Source of the DNA: Cycloclasticus sp. symbiont of Poecilosclerida sp. M
GTDB taxonomy: Bacteria > Pseudomonadota > Gammaproteobacteria > Methylococcales > Cycloclasticaceae
Direction: 5' to 3'
DNA length: 33,669 bases
Assembly: GCA_002101225.1 (NCBI GenBank)
Contig: LWTN01000227.1
Location: 1-33,669 of the forward strand
Each line of letters opens with the position of its first letter. Within the stretch, counting starts at the first letter, position 1. Positions 11,548 to 31,237 of this stretch are shown in pieces. Below the pieces are notes generated by a model that saw only the letters and a list, made by a program, of their open reading frames with translations, was not told the origin of the DNA and did not search any database. Both the position numbers and the translations under genes were made by a program.

Positions 11548-12843
11548 ATGAGTTTTTTACGTAAGATGTTACCCGTGCTTTTGTTGGGCACGATACTGGG
11601 TGTGCTATTGAGTATTGGTGGAAATGTGCTCGCAGAAAAAGAGGCTGCTAAAAACGCAGCATCGCTACCGTTAGAGGACTTAAGAGCCTTTTCAGAAATT
11701 TTTGGACAGATTAAATCAGCTTACGTTGAAGAAGTGAGTGACCATGATTTATTAGAAAACGCCATCAAAGGCATGTTGAGCGGCTTAGACCCTCACTCTT
11801 CTTACCTTGATGAAAAAGCATTTAAAGACTTGCAAGAGGGTACGCGAGGGGAGTTCGGCGGCCTAGGTATCGAAGTGGGTATGGAAGACGGGTTTATAAA
11901 AATTGTAGCACCGATTGATGATACGCCTGCGTTTAGGGCTGGCGTGCAGTCGGGAGACCTTGTAATTCGACTCGATGGAAAGCCCGTTAAAGGCATGAGT
12001 CTGTCAGATGCGGTGAAAATTATGCGCGGTAAACCCGGCACAGATATTGTGTTGACGATTGTTCGTGAAGAGGGAAACATGCCGTTTAAAGTAAAAATCA
12101 CGCGTGCAATTATTAAGGTCGTGAGCGTAAAGCAAAGAATGTTGGAGCCAGGTTACGGTTACGTACGGATTGCCAGTTTTCAATCCCGTACTGGCGCATC
12201 ATTAAACGAAGCACTAGATAAATTAAAAAAAGAAAATAAAGACGATGTATTAAAAGGGCTGGTGCTTGATCTAAGGAATAACCCCGGCGGTCTTCTAAAC
12301 GCGGCGGTTGCGGTTAGCGATGCCTTTTTAACCTCAGGTTTGATTGTCTATACCGAAGGTCGAGTTGAAAATTCAAAAATGCGGTTTAAAGCAAAGCCAG
12401 GTGACTCTATTAAAGGCGCTCCTATCGTTGTATTAATTAATGGTGGGTCTGCATCGGCATCGGAAATTGTCGCGGGTGCTCTGCAAGACCAAAAAAGGGC
12501 CGTCATCATGGGCCAACAGTCTTTTGGTAAAGGCTCGGTACAGACGGTTTTGCCTAATAATAACGGCGGAGCAATTAAGTTAACAACCGCGCGTTATTTC
12601 ACCCCAGCGGGTCGTTCTATTCAGGCAAAAGGTATAACGCCTGATGTCGCATTAACCAAGCTTAAGCTTGAAAAGATAGGCGGTGACTTTGAACCGGTCA
12701 AAGAAAGCGATCTTGGTAAACACTTAGAAAACACAGATGATAAAGCGGAAAGCAAAGGGGCAGACGCTAATGGCATTGAAAAAGACTACCCCTTGAACGA
12801 GGCGCTTAACTTACTAAAAGGCATTAATATTTTAAATAAGTAG
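11548..12843 (+). CDS. ctpA: Carboxy-terminal processing protease, S41 family
   Basis: This periplasmic PDZ-containing serine protease trims or degrades envelope proteins; in Pseudomonas CtpA degrades peptidoglycan hydrolases. The signal segment is MLPVLLLGTILGVLLSIGG. The PDZ domain (about 90-170) includes GLGIEVGMEDG and SGDLVIRLDGKPV. In the S41 core, catalytic Ser303 lies in the GGSASASEIVAGALQD segment and Lys328 in SFGKGSVQ, 25 residues later, as in E. coli Prc. The ATG at 11548 is preferred because GGAG lies five bases upstream; an in-frame TTG at 11515 overlaps the envC end and has no such site. With 431 residues it has a normal length. Its place after envC suggests joint control of cell-wall cleavage. 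Confidence 0.95.
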   Translation: MSFLRKMLPVLLLGTILGVLLSIGGNVLAEKEAAKNAASLPLEDLRAFSEIFGQIKSAYVEEVSDHDLLENAIKGMLSGLDPHSSYLDEKAFKDLQEGTRGEFGGLGIEVGMEDGFIKIVAPIDDTPAFRAGVQSGDLVIRLDGKPVKGMSLSDAVKIMRGKPGTDIVLTIVREEGNMPFKVKITRAIIKVVSVKQRMLEPGYGYVRIASFQSRTGASLNEALDKLKKENKDDVLKGLVLDLRNNPGGLLNAAVAVSDAFLTSGLIVYTEGRVENSKMRFKAKPGDSIKGAPIVVLINGGSASASEIVAGALQDQKRAVIMGQQSFGKGSVQTVLPNNNGGAIKLTTARYFTPAGRSIQAKGITPDVALTKLKLEKIGGDFEPVKESDLGKHLENTDDKAESKGADANGIEKDYPLNEALNLLKGINILNK

Positions 12844-23528: not shown

Positions 23529-26072
23529 TTAGAAAAGCTCCTCAATGGTTTTTTGTTCGGGTTCACCCAGCATTCCATCAGGGGTTGGAATATTTGCTTG
23601 GGCTTGCGGGACATTTTCTTCTCTAAAAAATTCAAAAACGGCATCTTCATTTGATGGGCCCGACATAAGGCCAGTTTCTTTATCAATTAATATGCTCACG
23701 ATTTCTTCTGGCTGTTGTAGAGCTATATCTGGGCTGCCTTTAAGCGCTTTACCCATAAAGCTCATCCACATAGGGAGTGCAGCCTTGCCACCTGTTTCAA
23801 AATCTCCTAAGGATCGACTATCATCAAAACCAACCCAAGCAATAGCGACTAGGTTAGGGTTAAAGCCGTTAAACCAAGCGTCTTTTTGATCATTCGTAGT
23901 ACCTGTCTTACCGGCTAAATCCGTACGGCCCAAACTGAGAGCCTTTCTACCCGTGCCTCGGTTGACTACATCGCGCAACAAGTTGTTTATTAGGAAATTA
24001 ACTTGCGGCGAAAGCACCCGTTTAGCGGGCACTTGCTCAGTCACCGCATCGGACATAGGGCTGTTTTCAAACAATGCCACGCCTTCGGTGGTGGGTAGAG
24101 GAATTGTTTGGACAGTGTCTGCAAAGGCAAGCTCTTCTGGCAAACAGTCCGTGCAAACGATAGGGTGGCTTGCCTTGAATAGAGTATCGCCAGAAGGGGA
24201 TACAATACGATCTATAAAATGGGGTTCTACTTGAAATCCACCGTTAGCAAAAACTGAATAAACGGTGGCCATTTGGTAAGGACTTGCGCTGCTACTACCC
24301 AATGCAAGCGATAAGTTTTTAGGTAAGGCCGCGGGGTTAAAGCCGAAATTAGCAGCAAAGTTACTCACGTATCTAACGCCAAGGTCCCGTAATATGCGAA
24401 TAGAGACTAAATTTCTAGAATTTACGAGGGCTTCTCTTAGGCGAGTTGGCCCGTAAAATTTTCCGCTGTAATTTTCAGGTCGCCACTGTTCTTCAAGCCC
24501 CGCGTCGTCAAAAACGACAGGCGCATCATTAATGAGGGTTGCGGTGGTGTAACCTTTTGTTAAGGCTGCCGTATAGAGAATGGGCTTAAACCCAGAGCCA
24601 GGTTGACGCTTTGTTTGATAGGCGCGGTTGAATTTGCTTTCATAAAAGTCATAGCCGCCTACAAGCGCGGTTACACGCCCATTTTTTGGGTCCATCGCCA
24701 CGATAGCGCCAGCGGCCTGTGGGACTTGAGCGAGTTCTAATTGGGGTTTAACTAGAGGTTCTACAGTCTTTTGATTTGAATCAGCATCACTACCTTTACT
24801 AGCGTTGTGCTTAATGCGAATGCGAATAATATCGCCAAGTTTCAGAATATCAGATGGTTTTTTGGGGTTAACGCCATATCGGTTTTCACTGATATAGGTT
24901 TTGGCCCAACTGAGTCCATCCCAAGAAATGACCTGTTTTTCACTTCCTCGAGTTTGAACTGAGATGTTCTCCTCGCCTAGCTGCATCACAATGGCGGGGA
25001 CGGTGTCACCGATTTTTTTATATTCAGCGAGCGAAGACGCGATTTCTTCGGTTGTTAATGAGGCAAGGTTTTTGACGTGACCCAATGCGCCGCGATAACC
25101 GTGTCGTTTGTCGTATTGGTGGAGAGCCTCTCTGGCTGCATGGTTGGCAGCACGCTGCTGGCTACTTTTGATGGTCGTGTAAACATGCATGCCGGAGGTG
25201 TAAATTTCATCGCCGTACGTTTTGTATAGTTCACTACGAACCATTTCAGCAATGTAAGGCGCTTGAACATCAATTGATGCAGCACTTATCTCGGCACTAA
25301 TGGATTCGGCAAGTGCAATGTCGAGCTGCTCTTGGGTGATGTAATCGAGGGAAAACATGCGGTTTAGAATGTGGTCTCGCCTTATTAAGGCCCGCTCAGG
25401 GTTGGTAATAGGGTTATAGGCAGAGGGTGCTTTTGGTAGGCCGGCAATCATAGCTTGTTGGGCTAAGCTTAGGTCGGACAGTCTTGCGCCATAATATATT
25501 TGAGCTGCCGCAGCGATGCCATATGAGCGATGACCCAGAAAAATTTTATTCAGGTATAGGGAGAAAATTTCCTGCTTGCTCAACTCGCTTTCAATGATAT
25601 ACGAGAGCAAAATCTCACGTAGTTTGCGGGTGTACGTTTTTTTGTTCGATAAAAAGAAATTACGTGCAACTTGCATGGTAATGGTGCTGCCACCCTGCTT
25701 TTTCTTACCCGTTAAAAGCAACTGAATAGCGGCGCGCGTTAAGCCAATATAATCGACGCCCCCGTGTTGAAAAAAACGATTATCTTCTGCGGCAAGAAAC
25801 GCGTTTATTTGCCCCTCTGGCACGTCTGCGTATTCGATAGGAATCCTTTTTTGTTCCCCAAATTGAGAAATTAACAGACCCTCTTGGCTATAAACGGTTA
25901 ACGGGGTTTGGTATTGAACATTTTTAAGCTCCTGAATTTCAGGCAGACCTGGTAAGATAGCGAATTTTATATATAGACCAATGACGGCGATGCCTAGTAA
26001 GGACGCATAACCTACACGCTTCAACACGGTTGGGTTTAGAATTTTTTTAAAAAAAGAATTACTTAGAGGCAC
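23529..26072 (-). CDS. mrcA: Penicillin-binding protein 1A (bifunctional)
   Basis: This inner-membrane peptidoglycan polymerase and cross-linker has 847 residues, as usual for PBP1A. A short cytosolic start and one transmembrane helix (about 20-40) are followed by the GT51 glycosyltransferase domain with catalytic Glu96 in AAEDNRFFQHGG and GGSTITMQVARNFFL. An inserted OB-like region (about 310-430) is typical of PBP1A. The transpeptidase domain has Ser493 in PGSGFKP (SxxK), SRN (SxN) and KTGTT (KTG). The start is GTG at 26072. It is divergent from pilM, the same order as in Pseudomonas (ponA/pilM). Confidence 0.96.
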   Translation of the reverse strand: MPLSNSFFKKILNPTVLKRVGYASLLGIAVIGLYIKFAILPGLPEIQELKNVQYQTPLTVYSQEGLLISQFGEQKRIPIEYADVPEGQINAFLAAEDNRFFQHGGVDYIGLTRAAIQLLLTGKKKQGGSTITMQVARNFFLSNKKTYTRKLREILLSYIIESELSKQEIFSLYLNKIFLGHRSYGIAAAAQIYYGARLSDLSLAQQAMIAGLPKAPSAYNPITNPERALIRRDHILNRMFSLDYITQEQLDIALAESISAEISAASIDVQAPYIAEMVRSELYKTYGDEIYTSGMHVYTTIKSSQQRAANHAAREALHQYDKRHGYRGALGHVKNLASLTTEEIASSLAEYKKIGDTVPAIVMQLGEENISVQTRGSEKQVISWDGLSWAKTYISENRYGVNPKKPSDILKLGDIIRIRIKHNASKGSDADSNQKTVEPLVKPQLELAQVPQAAGAIVAMDPKNGRVTALVGGYDFYESKFNRAYQTKRQPGSGFKPILYTAALTKGYTTATLINDAPVVFDDAGLEEQWRPENYSGKFYGPTRLREALVNSRNLVSIRILRDLGVRYVSNFAANFGFNPAALPKNLSLALGSSSASPYQMATVYSVFANGGFQVEPHFIDRIVSPSGDTLFKASHPIVCTDCLPEELAFADTVQTIPLPTTEGVALFENSPMSDAVTEQVPAKRVLSPQVNFLINNLLRDVVNRGTGRKALSLGRTDLAGKTGTTNDQKDAWFNGFNPNLVAIAWVGFDDSRSLGDFETGGKAALPMWMSFMGKALKGSPDIALQQPEEIVSILIDKETGLMSGPSNEDAVFEFFREENVPQAQANIPTPDGMLGEPEQKTIEELF

Positions 26073-26182
26073 AAAATCATTTACTACTAATTATATAATA
26101 GCTATTGTAGGACTATTGTGAGAAGAAGCACATATTCAAAGAGCTAATTTAACAAAGTTAAAAAAAATAAGTTAAATTTAAG

Positions 26183-26218
26183 ACTAAAACTAAAACTAAA
26201 ACTAAAACTAAAGCTAAA
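26183..26218. repeat. Hexanucleotide tandem repeat (ACTAAA)5 plus one variant unit
   Basis: Five perfect ACTAAA units run from 26183 to 26212, followed by GCTAAA at 26213-26218. The repeat lies in the noncoding region between the PBP1A start and pilM, about 110 bases before the pilM ATG. Such short repeats can change copy number by slippage. Confidence 0.9.
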
Positions 26219-26252
26219 CTGTAGAAAAAACGTGTTAGTCGTTGAAAACAAT

Positions 26253-26272
26253 AATCCATTTTTAAATGGATT
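26253..26272. repeat. Inverted repeat upstream of pilM
   Basis: AATCCATTT and AAATGGATT (9-base arms) surround a 2-base centre. It could be a hairpin or an operator in the pilM leader region; no regulator is known from the sequence. There is no T tract to suggest a terminator. Confidence 0.6.
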
Positions 26273-26329
26273 TAGGCTAATAATCTAAAATAATAGTTGA
26301 ATCAATAAATCATAAGGAGTGAGAAGAAA

Positions 26330-27397
26330 ATGGGTATGCCTTTCTTCACAAAAACTAATAACCATGTGCTTGGGTTGGATGTTAGCGCGTCTGCAGTCAA
26401 GTTAATTGAGTTAAGAGAAAAGGGCTCACGATACCGAGTCGAGAGTTTTTCGATAGCACCGCTTCCTGAAAATGCTGTAACAGATAATAATTACACAAAT
26501 GTTGAGGCCGTTGGGCAGGTCATGCGAACAGTGGTTGAGCGCTCAGGCACTAAATTAAAACAAGCAGCTTTATCCGTAACGGGTTCTGCGGTCATTACGA
26601 AAATCATTTCTATTCCTAGGCCTGAAAGTGATGAAGAGCTAGAAGCGCAAGTCGAGTTACTTGCAGATCAATATGTCCCCTACTCTCTAGATGAAGTTAA
26701 TCTGGATTATTACATTATTGGTCCAAACGAAAGGGACAATACGCTTGTAGACGTTCGATTGGCGGCTTCTAGGCGAGAGAATATTGAAGACCGTATAGCC
26801 GCGTTGGAGTATGCAGGATTGGAGGCAAAAGTTATTGATGTTGAGGCATATGTTTTAGAAAATTCATATGGCCTGTTAGACGATGCAATCCCAGATTATG
26901 GCCCTAATGGAATGACGGCTATTGTTGATACAGGGGCTACACTGACGACGCTAAATATTATTCAAAACAATAGAGTTATTTATTCACGCGAGCAAGGTTT
27001 TGGTGGAAAGCAACTAACGGAAGAAATTCAAAGGCGCTATGGCCTATCATATCAAGAGGCTGGGTTAGCCAAAAAGAAAGGTGGCCTACCTGAAAGCTTT
27101 GTAGAGGATCTGCTCGACCCGTTTAAAGATCTGATGTGTAAGCAAATAGATCGGTCTTTACAGTTTTTCTTTTCATCCAGCGAAAGTCGGTCAATTGATC
27201 ATGTGGTTTTGTCTGGTGGGGTGTCGGCCCTAACCGGGATAGATGCCTTGCTTGAAAAGAAGCTAGATATTCCCGTTGCTATTGCAAATCCATTTTCTCA
27301 AATGACGCTATCGTCCCGAGTCAATGCGCTGTCATTAAGGGAGAATGCCTCATCAATGATGGTTGCAACTGGATTAGCCCTTCGGAGTTTTGATTAA
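26330..27397 (+). CDS. pilM: Type IV pilus inner-membrane platform protein PilM
   Basis: This actin-like (FtsA fold) cytoplasmic protein binds the cytosolic tail of PilN and links the alignment complex to the pilus motor. It has 355 residues. The nucleotide-binding pieces are GLDVSASAVKLIEL (phosphate 1), IVDTGATLTTLNI (phosphate 2) and VVLSGGVSALTG (adenosine). SIPRPESDEELEAQVELLADQYVPY is conserved in PilM. The ATG at 26330 has AAGGAG ten bases upstream. Its stop overlaps the pilN start in a TAATG. Confidence 0.95.
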   Translation: MGMPFFTKTNNHVLGLDVSASAVKLIELREKGSRYRVESFSIAPLPENAVTDNNYTNVEAVGQVMRTVVERSGTKLKQAALSVTGSAVITKIISIPRPESDEELEAQVELLADQYVPYSLDEVNLDYYIIGPNERDNTLVDVRLAASRRENIEDRIAALEYAGLEAKVIDVEAYVLENSYGLLDDAIPDYGPNGMTAIVDTGATLTTLNIIQNNRVIYSREQGFGGKQLTEEIQRRYGLSYQEAGLAKKKGGLPESFVEDLLDPFKDLMCKQIDRSLQFFFSSSESRSIDHVVLSGGVSALTGIDALLEKKLDIPVAIANPFSQMTLSSRVNALSLRENASSMMVATGLALRSFD

Positions 27398-27951
27398 TGT
27401 CTAGGATTAACTTACTGCCGTGGCGAGAAGATCTGAAAAAACAGCGACAAAGGGAGTTCCTCTCAACTTTGGGCTTGGCCGCAATAGCGATGTTGTTATC
27501 TATGCTCCTTGTTCACGCAACGTATACCTCGATGATAGAGAATCAGGCAAACAGAAATAGCGTTATACAAAAGGAGATAAAGCTACTAGACGAAAAAATA
27601 AAAACAATAAATGCCTTAGCTAAAACAAAAAACCAGCTGATAGCGCGTATGCAAGTTATCCAAAATTTACAACGAAGCCGACCAGAAATTGTACATATGT
27701 TTGACCAACTTGCCACGACGGTGCCCGAAGGTGTCTATTTAAAAAGCTTTATCCAGAACGGACAAAATTTGGTGATACAGGGCAACGCAGAGTCTAATAC
27801 GCGTGTCTCGGCGTACATGGACAGACTGGAAGAGTCTCCATGGCTAAAGGGGACAGATTTAAATATTATCAGTTCGAAGGCTCTTGGTGTTAATGGATTT
27901 ACTCTTCGGGTTTCACAGGCGAAAGCTGCGAAAAAAGAGGAGAATAAATAA
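27397..27951 (+). CDS. pilN: Type IV pilus assembly protein PilN
   Basis: This bitopic inner-membrane protein pairs with PilO. It starts MSRINLLPWRED, which contains the invariant INLLPWR motif that binds PilM in the cytoplasm. One membrane helix (about 23-43) is followed by a periplasmic coiled coil (EIKLLDEKIKTINALAKTKNQLIARMQVI) and a ferredoxin-like domain. It has 184 residues. The ATG overlaps the pilM stop by one base. Confidence 0.95.
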   Translation: MSRINLLPWREDLKKQRQREFLSTLGLAAIAMLLSMLLVHATYTSMIENQANRNSVIQKEIKLLDEKIKTINALAKTKNQLIARMQVIQNLQRSRPEIVHMFDQLATTVPEGVYLKSFIQNGQNLVIQGNAESNTRVSAYMDRLEESPWLKGTDLNIISSKALGVNGFTLRVSQAKAAKKEENK

Positions 27952-27952
27952 G

Positions 27953-28540
27953 ATGAATTTAGAACAAATTAACTGGGATTTTAACGAGGTTGGAAATTGG
28001 CCAAAGCCTGTAAAAGCAGGGGCTATTATATTAGCTTGTGTACTGATTAGTTTGGCGTGGTTGTATGTAGATACAAGCGAACAAACGGCAATGCTAGAAA
28101 CAGCCGAAAAGCAGGAACTAAAACTTAAACAGGTCTTCGAGGCGAAACAGAAAAAAGCAGTTAATTTGGTGGCATATGAGTTACAACTTAAAGATATGCG
28201 TGAGCAGTTTGGCGCCATGTTGAAGCAACTGCCTAACAAAACGGAAATACCTGATCTTATTATTGATGTATCTCAGGCGGGATTAGCTAGCGGCCTTGAA
28301 TTCAAACTGTTTCAGCCACAAAGTGAGGTAGATAAAGGTTTTTACAGAGAAAAGCCCATGAATATTGTTGTACAAGGGAGTTATCATGAGCTTGGAGAAT
28401 TTGTTAGTAACTTGGCCGCTCTTCCACGGATAGTTACGTTGCATAATGTATCGCTTTCGGGATCCGGAGAAAAAATGAAAATGGCGGCTATTGTAAAGAC
28501 GTATCGTTATGTGGAGGGGCAGGAAAATGATGATGGCTAA
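27953..28540 (+). CDS. pilO: Type IV pilus assembly protein PilO
   Basis: This inner-membrane partner of PilN has 195 residues. One membrane helix (AGAIILACVLISLAWLY), a periplasmic coiled coil and a C-terminal ferredoxin-like domain make the usual order. LPNKTEIPDLIIDVSQAGLASGLEFKLFQP is the family hallmark. I use the ATG at 27953, one base after the pilN stop, because GAGGAG lies 10 bases upstream; an earlier open reading lies wholly inside pilN in another frame. Confidence 0.95.
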   Translation: MNLEQINWDFNEVGNWPKPVKAGAIILACVLISLAWLYVDTSEQTAMLETAEKQELKLKQVFEAKQKKAVNLVAYELQLKDMREQFGAMLKQLPNKTEIPDLIIDVSQAGLASGLEFKLFQPQSEVDKGFYREKPMNIVVQGSYHELGEFVSNLAALPRIVTLHNVSLSGSGEKMKMAAIVKTYRYVEGQENDDG

Positions 28541-29084
28541 AGGTAACCGCGTGACTAAGAGAGCGAAATTAAAAGCAGCAGTAATGGTCATTTCGGTTTT
28601 GGTGCTCGGTTGTGCCAGTGAGGAATTTGGCGACCTAAATGATTACATAGCTGAGGTATACGCTAGAAAACCTGGGTTGATAAAGCCCTTGCCAGCGATT
28701 AAGCCATATGCATCTTTTCGTTATGTAAAAGATGGACTAAGGAACCCATTTACACCAATTAATAAGCACAAGCAGGTCGCCTATGACATAGAAAATATTG
28801 TGGGTCCAGGTCCAGATTTGGCTCGAACAAAGGTGGGGTTAGAGGGCTTCCCATTAGACACTTTAAGAATGGTAGGGACGATAGCAAAAGGCAATCAAAC
28901 GTGGGGTTTAATAAAAGCGGGCGATGGCATAATTCATCTAGTATTACCAGGTCAATATATGGGTAGAAACTTTGGCAAAATTCAAAAGGTGGACAACCAG
29001 AAAATAGAATTGGAAGAGTATATTGTATCAGCCGAAGGGCGATGGGTTAAAAGGCAAACAGAGATTGAACTTTCAGAGCACTAA
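28527..29084 (+). CDS. pilP: Type IV pilus lipoprotein PilP
   Basis: This inner-membrane lipoprotein connects PilN/PilO to the secretin PilQ. It has 185 residues. The signal ends in LVLGC with Cys29 as the lipid site. A disordered Pro-rich stretch with the PilQ/PilNO-contact region (YVKDGLRNPFTP) is followed by the beta-sandwich HR domain (LDTLRMVGTIAKGNQTWGLIKAGDGIIHLVLPGQYMG). Three consecutive ATG codons (28527, 28530, 28533) are possible starts; the first has the better spacing from GGAGG. The start overlaps the pilO end by 14 bases. Confidence 0.94.
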   Translation: MMMAKGNRVTKRAKLKAAVMVISVLVLGCASEEFGDLNDYIAEVYARKPGLIKPLPAIKPYASFRYVKDGLRNPFTPINKHKQVAYDIENIVGPGPDLARTKVGLEGFPLDTLRMVGTIAKGNQTWGLIKAGDGIIHLVLPGQYMGRNFGKIQKVDNQKIELEEYIVSAEGRWVKRQTEIELSEH

Positions 29085-29098
29085 AGGCGAAAATTATT

Positions 29099-31237
29099 AT
29101 GAAACAGGCAAAAAAGAAACACGCCATGCAAAAGGCAATTTGGAGCGGACAGATGATAAGAAAAGTTTATAACAAGAAAAATTTATTGTTGGGGCTGGCA
29201 TTAATTTCAGTATTTATAGCACAGCAGGCGTTCGCGCAGACGACTGCGTTACACCAGATTCAGTTCACAAGCCTGCCAGGAAATCGTATTCAACTAGAGC
29301 TGGCGATGGACGGTGAGCCGAGGCAAATACAAACCTTTAACACTGAAAATCCTGCGCGCATTGCAATTGACTTAATGGGTGTTGCAAACAAATCGGGGAA
29401 GCGTGCTATTGATATAGGCCTAGGAAAGGCGCTGAGTGTAAGGGCTGTAGAAGCCAAAGGTAAGACGCGAGTGGTGATCAACCTAACATCTTCTGTACCT
29501 TATACGACGAAAGTTGAAGGGAACAGTGTTTTTTTAACACTAAATGGTACATCGGCCTCAGCGCTACCAAAAAGTGTAATTGACCCAGTTGATAAAACGA
29601 AACTTATTGATGAAAGGAAAGGTAGAAGAATTAGTCACATTGATTTTAGAAGGGGTTTAGCAGGTGAGGGGCGAGTGCTTGTTAATTTATCAGACGCGTC
29701 GGCACTCGTAGATGTTAAGGAAGAAGGGGGGAAAGTCATTGTTGATATTATGGATACTGCTTTGCCTCCAGAACTTGCAAATCACTTAGATGTTATCGAT
29801 TTTGCTACGCCTGTAACGGCCATTGATATAAAACCTGCCGGTAAGAATACGCGGCTTATTATTTCAGCCGTTGGTGCGTATGAGTTTTTGTCGTATCAGA
29901 TGGGTGAGTTATTAACGGTAGAATTTAAGCGAATATCAAAAGAGCAACTAGACCGAGAGGTGGCTGAAAAGTTTAAGTACACAGGAGAAAAGTTGACCTT
30001 AGATTTTCAGGACATACCCGTGCGCACGGTTTTGCAAATCCTTGCAGACGTTACAGATATGAATTTAGTCGCGAGCGACTCAGTTGGCGGTAATGTAACG
30101 CTACGTTTAAATAATGTGCCTAGGGACCAGGCGTTGGAAGTTATTTTAACAAGCAAAGGGCTTGGAAAGCGCGTTGAAGGAAATGTAATGATGGTGGGTC
30201 CTGCGAGTGAGATTGCACGCCAAGAAAAAGAGGCGCTAAAAGCTAAACAGCAAGTACAGGAATTGGCGCCATTAGTTTCTGAATTTATTGAAATAAGTTA
30301 TGCAAGTGCTTCGGAAATAGCGGCGCTATTAAAAGCGGCAAAGGGGCAGCTAATATCTTCACGTGGCGGTGTGACCATTGATGCAAGAACAAATACATTA
30401 TTAGTTCAAGATACAGCTGAAAAAATTGTGGAGATAAAGAAAATCATTCAACGGATAGATAGGCCAGTCAGACAGGTGATGATTGAATCAAGGATTGTTA
30501 TTGCAAATGATGACTTTACAAGGGACCTAGGTATTCGGTTTGGTTTACAGGGGATTGATATCAATGGAACTTCAGTTATAGCCGCAGGCGGAGCGATTCC
30601 ATCAGCATCTGGTGGAGCGCCACCTTTTGGTGTTGGGCTTCCAGATGCGTTATTGGTTGATTTGCCTGTAGCAAGCCCTGCAGGAGCCGTTCAGTTTATT
30701 ATCGGGAAAATAGGGAATTCATTATTACAATTAGAGCTGTCAGCTCTACAAACAGAGGCTAAAGGCGAAGTTATTTCTAGCCCGCGTGTAATTACATCCG
30801 ATCAAGTGCAGGCAGAAATTAGGCAAGGCATAGAAATACCATTCCAAGAGGCGACTTCATCAGGTGCAACATCAACGCGTTTTATATCAGCCGAAATCAA
30901 TCTTACGGTCACGCCTAGGATTACTCCTGATGACCGTATAAACCTTGAATTAGACGTTAGTAAAGATGCGCCAGACTTTTCTAACATTCAACCTGATGGT
31001 GTCCCCATTAACACACAAAATGTAACGACTACCGTGCTAGTTGATAATGGCGATACGGTTATATTGGGTGGTATCTACGAACGGACCGAGAATCTTGGCG
31101 TTAGGAAAGTACCATTTTTTGGTGATTTGCCGGTAGTCGGCAATTTATTCAAGGCAGAATTTAAACAAGATAATAATCGCGAGCTGCTATTCTTTATTAC
31201 GCCAAAAATTCTTAAAGAGGGCTTATCTGTTAACTAG
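29099..31237 (+). CDS. pilQ: Type IV pilus secretin PilQ
   Basis: This outer-membrane multimeric channel lets the pilus out. It has 712 residues. A signal peptide ends AQQAFAQ. Two AMIN domains (about 50-150 and 170-270) bind peptidoglycan. An STN/N0 domain (LTLDFQDIPVRTVLQILADVTDMNLV), a secretin_N domain with the hallmark LVQDTAEKIVEIKKIIQRID, and the C-terminal secretin domain (ISSPRVITSDQVQAEIRQG and VPFFGDLPVVGNLFK) follow. The ATG at 29099 gives a long basic leader of about 28 residues before the hydrophobic core; the ATG at 29153, with GGAG seven bases upstream, would give a standard signal peptide and may be the true start. Confidence 0.95.
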   Translation: MKQAKKKHAMQKAIWSGQMIRKVYNKKNLLLGLALISVFIAQQAFAQTTALHQIQFTSLPGNRIQLELAMDGEPRQIQTFNTENPARIAIDLMGVANKSGKRAIDIGLGKALSVRAVEAKGKTRVVINLTSSVPYTTKVEGNSVFLTLNGTSASALPKSVIDPVDKTKLIDERKGRRISHIDFRRGLAGEGRVLVNLSDASALVDVKEEGGKVIVDIMDTALPPELANHLDVIDFATPVTAIDIKPAGKNTRLIISAVGAYEFLSYQMGELLTVEFKRISKEQLDREVAEKFKYTGEKLTLDFQDIPVRTVLQILADVTDMNLVASDSVGGNVTLRLNNVPRDQALEVILTSKGLGKRVEGNVMMVGPASEIARQEKEALKAKQQVQELAPLVSEFIEISYASASEIAALLKAAKGQLISSRGGVTIDARTNTLLVQDTAEKIVEIKKIIQRIDRPVRQVMIESRIVIANDDFTRDLGIRFGLQGIDINGTSVIAAGGAIPSASGGAPPFGVGLPDALLVDLPVASPAGAVQFIIGKIGNSLLQLELSALQTEAKGEVISSPRVITSDQVQAEIRQGIEIPFQEATSSGATSTRFISAEINLTVTPRITPDDRINLELDVSKDAPDFSNIQPDGVPINTQNVTTTVLVDNGDTVILGGIYERTENLGVRKVPFFGDLPVVGNLFKAEFKQDNNRELLFFITPKILKEGLSVN

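Follow-up and report, generated by a model that had tools for sequence, protein, structure and literature searches.

A repeat of the hexamer ACTAAA lies between the divergent genes for PBP1A and PilM in a Cycloclasticus sp. symbiont of Poecilosclerida sp. M, and raises the question whether it switches pilus expression among cells or is a microsatellite that came to lie in a promoter. An initial annotation had proposed the former as a possibility, reasoning that each gain or loss of a unit would alter promoter spacing by six bases. We analysed a stretch of 33,669 nucleotides around the repeat (the window) together with its genome (G000; 2.32 Mb, 244 contigs, 99.99% complete), which groups with Cycloclasticus. 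On one side of the repeat the window encodes an intact PBP1A (mrcA/ponA) of 847 aa (23529..26072, minus strand; Pfam Transgly, Transpeptidase and PCB_OB). On the other side follows an intact pilM of 355 aa (26330..27397, plus strand; Pfam PilM_2, 407 bits), the first gene of pilMNOPQ, which is preceded by a Shine-Dalgarno-like AAGGAG and whose product is 66-69% identical to those of genus members with a full match. The genes pilN, pilO, pilP and pilQ (27397..31237, plus strand; Pfam PilN, PilO, PilP and Secretin/AMIN) are likewise intact and are followed by aroK and aroB, both open and Pfam-confirmed. Elsewhere the genome encodes motor ATPases (three strong T2SSE matches, whose open frames span 588, 348 and 373 aa) as well as five N-termini of the prepilin type. 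By gene content the pilus system thus appears to be complete in kind, and with motor genes and prepilins intact, pilMNOPQ is not simply a dead operon. A different state was seen in relative G016 (98% complete), which has lost pilMNOPQ between mrcA and aroK and shows transposase-like frames nearby (L155, G016:C76:243900-248174).

The repeat (26183..26218, plus strand) consists of five perfect ACTAAA units (26183-26212) followed by GCTAAA (26213-26218), and the unit count given in the initial annotation was borne out by direct reading, TRF, pattern search and shuffling. TRF ranked it first among seven arrays in the window (26179-26218, 6.7 copies, 94% matches). The pattern ACTAAAACTAAA, with at most one mismatch, occurred seven times in the window versus 0.38 times expected; five of these occurrences were inside the array, and none of 100 shuffles reached seven. 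The longest perfect period-6 run in the 257-bp intergenic region (23% G+C) was 30 bp, while the maximum among 20,000 dinucleotide shuffles of this region was 22 bp. These results confirmed that the array is real and beyond chance.

A screen for perfect arrays of period 4-9, with a length of at least 20 bp and at least three units, covered the window and 20 further stretches of its genome, 396,068 bases altogether. It found four, the ACTAAA array among them, and the other three were all located on the eukaryotic-looking contig C170. This contig (L110) carries (ATGT)43 together with a weak SRCR-domain match below the Pfam cut-off and is perhaps host DNA; ATGT runs were also present on contigs C124, C154 and C187. 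No perfect array of period 4-9 was found in the relatives' loci (72,826 bases, partly overlapping). In a genome-wide comparison with one genome per species, three or more perfect ACTAAA units were absent from the other 17 genomes of the genus, leaving the window genome alone among 18. A known RNA family was rejected as an explanation of the array, as the only Rfam match of the window lies elsewhere. This match to Rp_sR47 (Rickettsia sRNA47), above threshold at 12271-12578 on the minus strand, is antisense within a Peptidase_S41 (CtpA-type) gene and probably reflects protein conservation and not an sRNA. The portions of the literature on phase variation, Cycloclasticus, type IV pili and pilMNOPQ/Vfr that were consulted contained no account of this array.

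For the promoter layout we read the mrcA-pilM region in the window genome and in 15 relatives, using a 14-row alignment (A1) to which G014 and G016 were added. G006 and G007 were left out, having neither a pilM match nor a full-length PBP1A match. The pilM promoter was readable in 14 relatives, G016 having no pilM. Some 110-120 bp ahead of the pilM start, each of these 14 has the sequence CTATACT, where the window reads CTAAACT. This position is likely the pilM -10 element, which in the window would be TAAACT (26215..26220, plus strand; TATACT in relatives). By comparison with the relatives the array abuts this putative -10 and its last unit overlaps it, which agrees with the earlier placement of the repeat in the divergent promoter region. 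The last unit had also been described as a variant repeat. GCTAAA is indeed present, but it seems to be the ancestral flank of the -10 with a single base changed (GCTATACT in relatives, GCTAAACT in the window) and not a decayed unit. A sigma-70 scan returned three promoter-like matches versus 2.0 expected. A conserved hairpin in the pilM 5'UTR was considered and rejected, with 11 folds giving z-scores between -1.33 and 1.28. The pilM leaders of the window (26250-26280) and of several relatives (for example L008, L010 and L016) do contain inverted repeats, which differ in sequence and have fold energies within those of shuffled sequences.

Upstream of the array lies a CRP/Vfr-type palindrome, TGTGAGAAGAAGCACA (26117..26132), identified through the homologous site of the relatives. 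It reads TGTGA-N6-GCACA, with one mismatch to TGTGA-N6-TCACA. The latter is found exactly in 12 of the 14 relatives with a readable promoter and in G016 (13 of 15 read); G015 shows one mismatch, and in G009 the site is degenerate as judged from the alignment alone. Divergent regions between PBP1A and com, hof or pil genes with CRP-S sites are known from Haemophilus influenzae (ponA-comA) and Escherichia coli (mrcA-hofM). The Cycloclasticus region shares with these the divergent genes and the CRP-family site between them, but differs in that its site is of the canonical TGTGA-N6-TCACA type and not of the CRP-S form. This exact site was absent from the 44 loci listed from outside the genus.

The distance between palindrome and TATACT was 58-62 bp in all 13 relatives in which it was measured, whereas the window has 82 bp. 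Two relatives, G010 and G013, show a distance of 58 bp and have ACTAAAGC, equal to a single ACTAAA unit, before the hexamer; in G003, G005 and G014 the box is likewise ACTAAAGCTATACT. Deleting four units from the window restores the 58 bp of G010 and G013. In the mrcA protein tree the window genome is sister to these two genomes (support 100/99) and sits on a long branch of 0.61. One unit in the sisters and an exact excess of 24 bp (4 x 6) therefore point to expansion of one ancestral box by slippage, and the simplest history would be growth from one to five units on the branch leading to the window genome. The flanks of the array are 65% (32/49) and 63% (69/110) identical to those of G010, and the 30-bp perfect array contains no substitution. 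A rough estimate, with Jukes-Cantor correction and half of the divergence assigned to the window branch on the basis of the mrcA tree, gives about 0.25 changes per site, or about seven expected per 30 bp against none in the array. An unsubstituted array between diverged flanks might indicate that the branch or split predates it, or that continuing slippage has kept it uniform; by this rough measure it would be young or still turning over. Given its tandem units beyond chance, its location in the promoter and its length difference among relatives, the array is, as judged from sequence, a promoter microsatellite.

On the opposite side of the palindrome, at a distance of 7 bp, lies a possible mrcA -10, TACAAT (26104..26109, minus strand; ATTGTA on the plus strand). 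This element, ATTCTA in G011, is separated from the palindrome by 7 bp in 13 relatives and by 8 bp in G004, and could not be placed in G009. As the array is more than 70 bp upstream of it, PBP1A is even less likely to be affected than pilM, and a role of the array as PBP1A regulator was rejected. The strict 7-bp spacing on the mrcA side, compared with the loose 58-62 bp to the pilM -10, suggests that the palindrome may serve mrcA more than pilM.

The partner that best fits the palindrome is likely the Vfr/CRP orthologue, and its binding there is inferred from the sequence of the site and from the intact protein of G015. This protein matches Clp of the Xanthomonas campestris type, Vfr of Pseudomonas aeruginosa and CRP of E. 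coli in the PDB (E ~1e-57 to 1e-61). Its recognition helix reads CSREMAGR, and the CSRE..GR residues presumably read TGTGA. In G015 the regulator is intact although the palindrome carries one mismatch. In the window genome the orthologue is located on the minus strand at about G000:C234 40310-41000 (L080:1008-1672), between trpC and an osmC-like gene, neighbours that we take to be similar to those of P. aeruginosa vfr. Both neighbours are open and 77-88% identical to those of relatives. The gene itself is fragmented: its three pieces lie in different reading frames, in-frame TGAs occur, and there are at least three frame changes. Errors of assembly could in principle account for three frameshifts within a single gene. 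A 72-aa-frame piece of this broken gene was the sole HTH_Crp_2 match of the genome, and the HTH_Crp_2 search found no other protein with a CRP-type HTH. Among relatives such matches numbered six in G015, seven in G008, three in G013 and none in G016; strong CRP matches were also lacking in G002, G003 and G010, but these genomes are only 73-80% complete. Class III adenylate cyclases were absent from all 18 genus genomes. Present-day CRP/Vfr control in the window genome is doubtful on the gene inventory, the site being present and an intact orthologue apparently missing. G016 has lost pilM and has no HTH_Crp_2 match, yet the palindrome upstream of its mrcA is perfect. This, together with the loose spacing to the pilM -10, implies that the association between broken regulator and array may be a coincidence.

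We consider it reasonably probable that the array is a young microsatellite, neutral or mildly tuning, in a promoter that has been freed from its regulator. A single ancestral ACTAAA box directly upstream of the pilM -10 would have grown by replication slippage in one fast-evolving Cycloclasticus-related lineage, which would have moved the CRP/Vfr-type site 24 bp farther from the -10. The array would have arisen, or been tolerated, against the background of a frameshifted Vfr/CRP orthologue, and with that gene broken the old spacing between palindrome and -10 was probably no longer under selection. The present effect on pilM would probably be nil, or a mild change in basal transcription through A-rich DNA upstream of the -10. 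We infer the neutrality of the array from these observations; a perfect array would also be expected of an actively slipping, selected contingency locus, which counts against a neutral reading.

The array might instead have been favoured as an adaptive rewiring of the promoter, which we regard as unlikely. The A-rich repeat would then act as an UP-like or basal enhancer replacing activation by Vfr/CRP, with pilM expressed constitutively and the number of units stable. The coincidence of the broken orthologue with the array while the pil genes are intact is consistent with this, as is the location of the array, which by its predicted position fills exactly -13 to -48, the region contacted by sigma and alpha-CTD. 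However, the putative -10 has been weakened from TATACT to TAAACT, and the array occurs in a single lineage without independent recurrence. Activation of pilM by Vfr/CRP in this genus is moreover an assumption, and G016, which has no CRP-type HTH, lost its pil operon instead.

Phase variation, or a rheostat, is quite unlikely in our assessment. Slippage would here vary the distance or helical phase between the -10 and an upstream element, be it a CRP-type site, an alpha-CTD contact or the site of another protein. The location of the array in the promoter, its perfection over 30 bp and the control of a surface organelle by pilM would all suit such a device. In silico, however, arrays of four to nine units all give an identical sequence between -36 and -13, as counted with respect to the putative -10. 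A switch of the pilM -35/-10 spacer was rejected for this locus, as an array of at least four units takes up the entire spacer together with the place of the -35. Each added unit would shift only the DNA farther upstream, by 6 bp or 0.57 turn, and no upstream element other than the CRP-type site is conserved on the pilM side. The earlier claim that a copy change alters promoter spacing thus holds for the distance to the CRP/Vfr-type site, which has grown by 4 x 6 bp, but not for the core spacing, which is constant at four or more units. With the Vfr/CRP orthologue frameshifted and no other CRP-type HTH found, the factor able to sense a changed spacing is apparently missing. The proposed phase-variation device is weakened by this, by the fixed core and by the presence of the array in one of 18 genus genomes. 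Short repeat arrays also slip slowly. Phase variation of pilM by the array is possible but unsupported, and an action via contacts of alpha-CTD with the A-rich DNA, or via another protein, could be envisaged. With a core spacing that does not change and a locus that is not conserved, we would file the array, on sequence grounds, as a promoter microsatellite and not as a phase-variation device.

Promoter repeats with regulatory function have precedents, which we compare here on the basis of the available portions of the respective papers. In the nadA promoter of Neisseria meningitidis the number of TAAA units sets the distance between NadR operators (PMC2791445). Both nadA and the pilM locus have an A/T-rich simple repeat upstream of a surface-adhesion gene, with a distal spacing of regulator sites that depends on the number of units. 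The nadA repeat is, however, a tetranucleotide that was shown to vary; its core promoter, which lies downstream of the repeat, is intact, and the repressor NadR and IHF are present, whereas the pilM array is a hexamer that abuts the -10 and whose candidate regulator gene is broken. In the divergent fimbrial promoter of hifA/hifB in H. influenzae there is a TA tract (PMC2651432), so that this pilus operon, too, has a repeat in a divergent promoter region. That tract is a dinucleotide repeat of 9-11 units that controls two divergent promoters, while the pilM array abuts one side only. The same source, in the part available, describes ten hexanucleotide repeats in four H. influenzae genomes, none of which yielded a phase-variation candidate; they were conserved or altered in sequence and not in length, with the exception of one near pgk that has two versus three units (PMC2651432).

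A reading in which a host-associated Cycloclasticus lineage that had lost Vfr/CRP compensated by replacing regulated pilus expression with a rheostat at the pilM promoter, set by the length of the repeat, seems very improbable to us. An artefact of assembly or consensus in this metagenome bin is extremely unlikely, for although the assembly is fragmented and one sampled contig looks eukaryotic, the 36-bp array is shorter than any usual read, removal of units restores the spacing of the sisters exactly, and to either side of the array the window's contig (C227) is colinear with those of relatives (mrcA, pilMNOPQ, aroK, aroB).

As things stand, the locus is a caution that a repeat in a promoter is not necessarily a switch. 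The origin of a microsatellite at the pilM promoter is legible here, with a one-unit ancestor, an exact expansion and the loss of the likely regulator. If the number of repeats were to tune pili, the locus would represent a natural example of a contingency locus born after the loss of a regulator.
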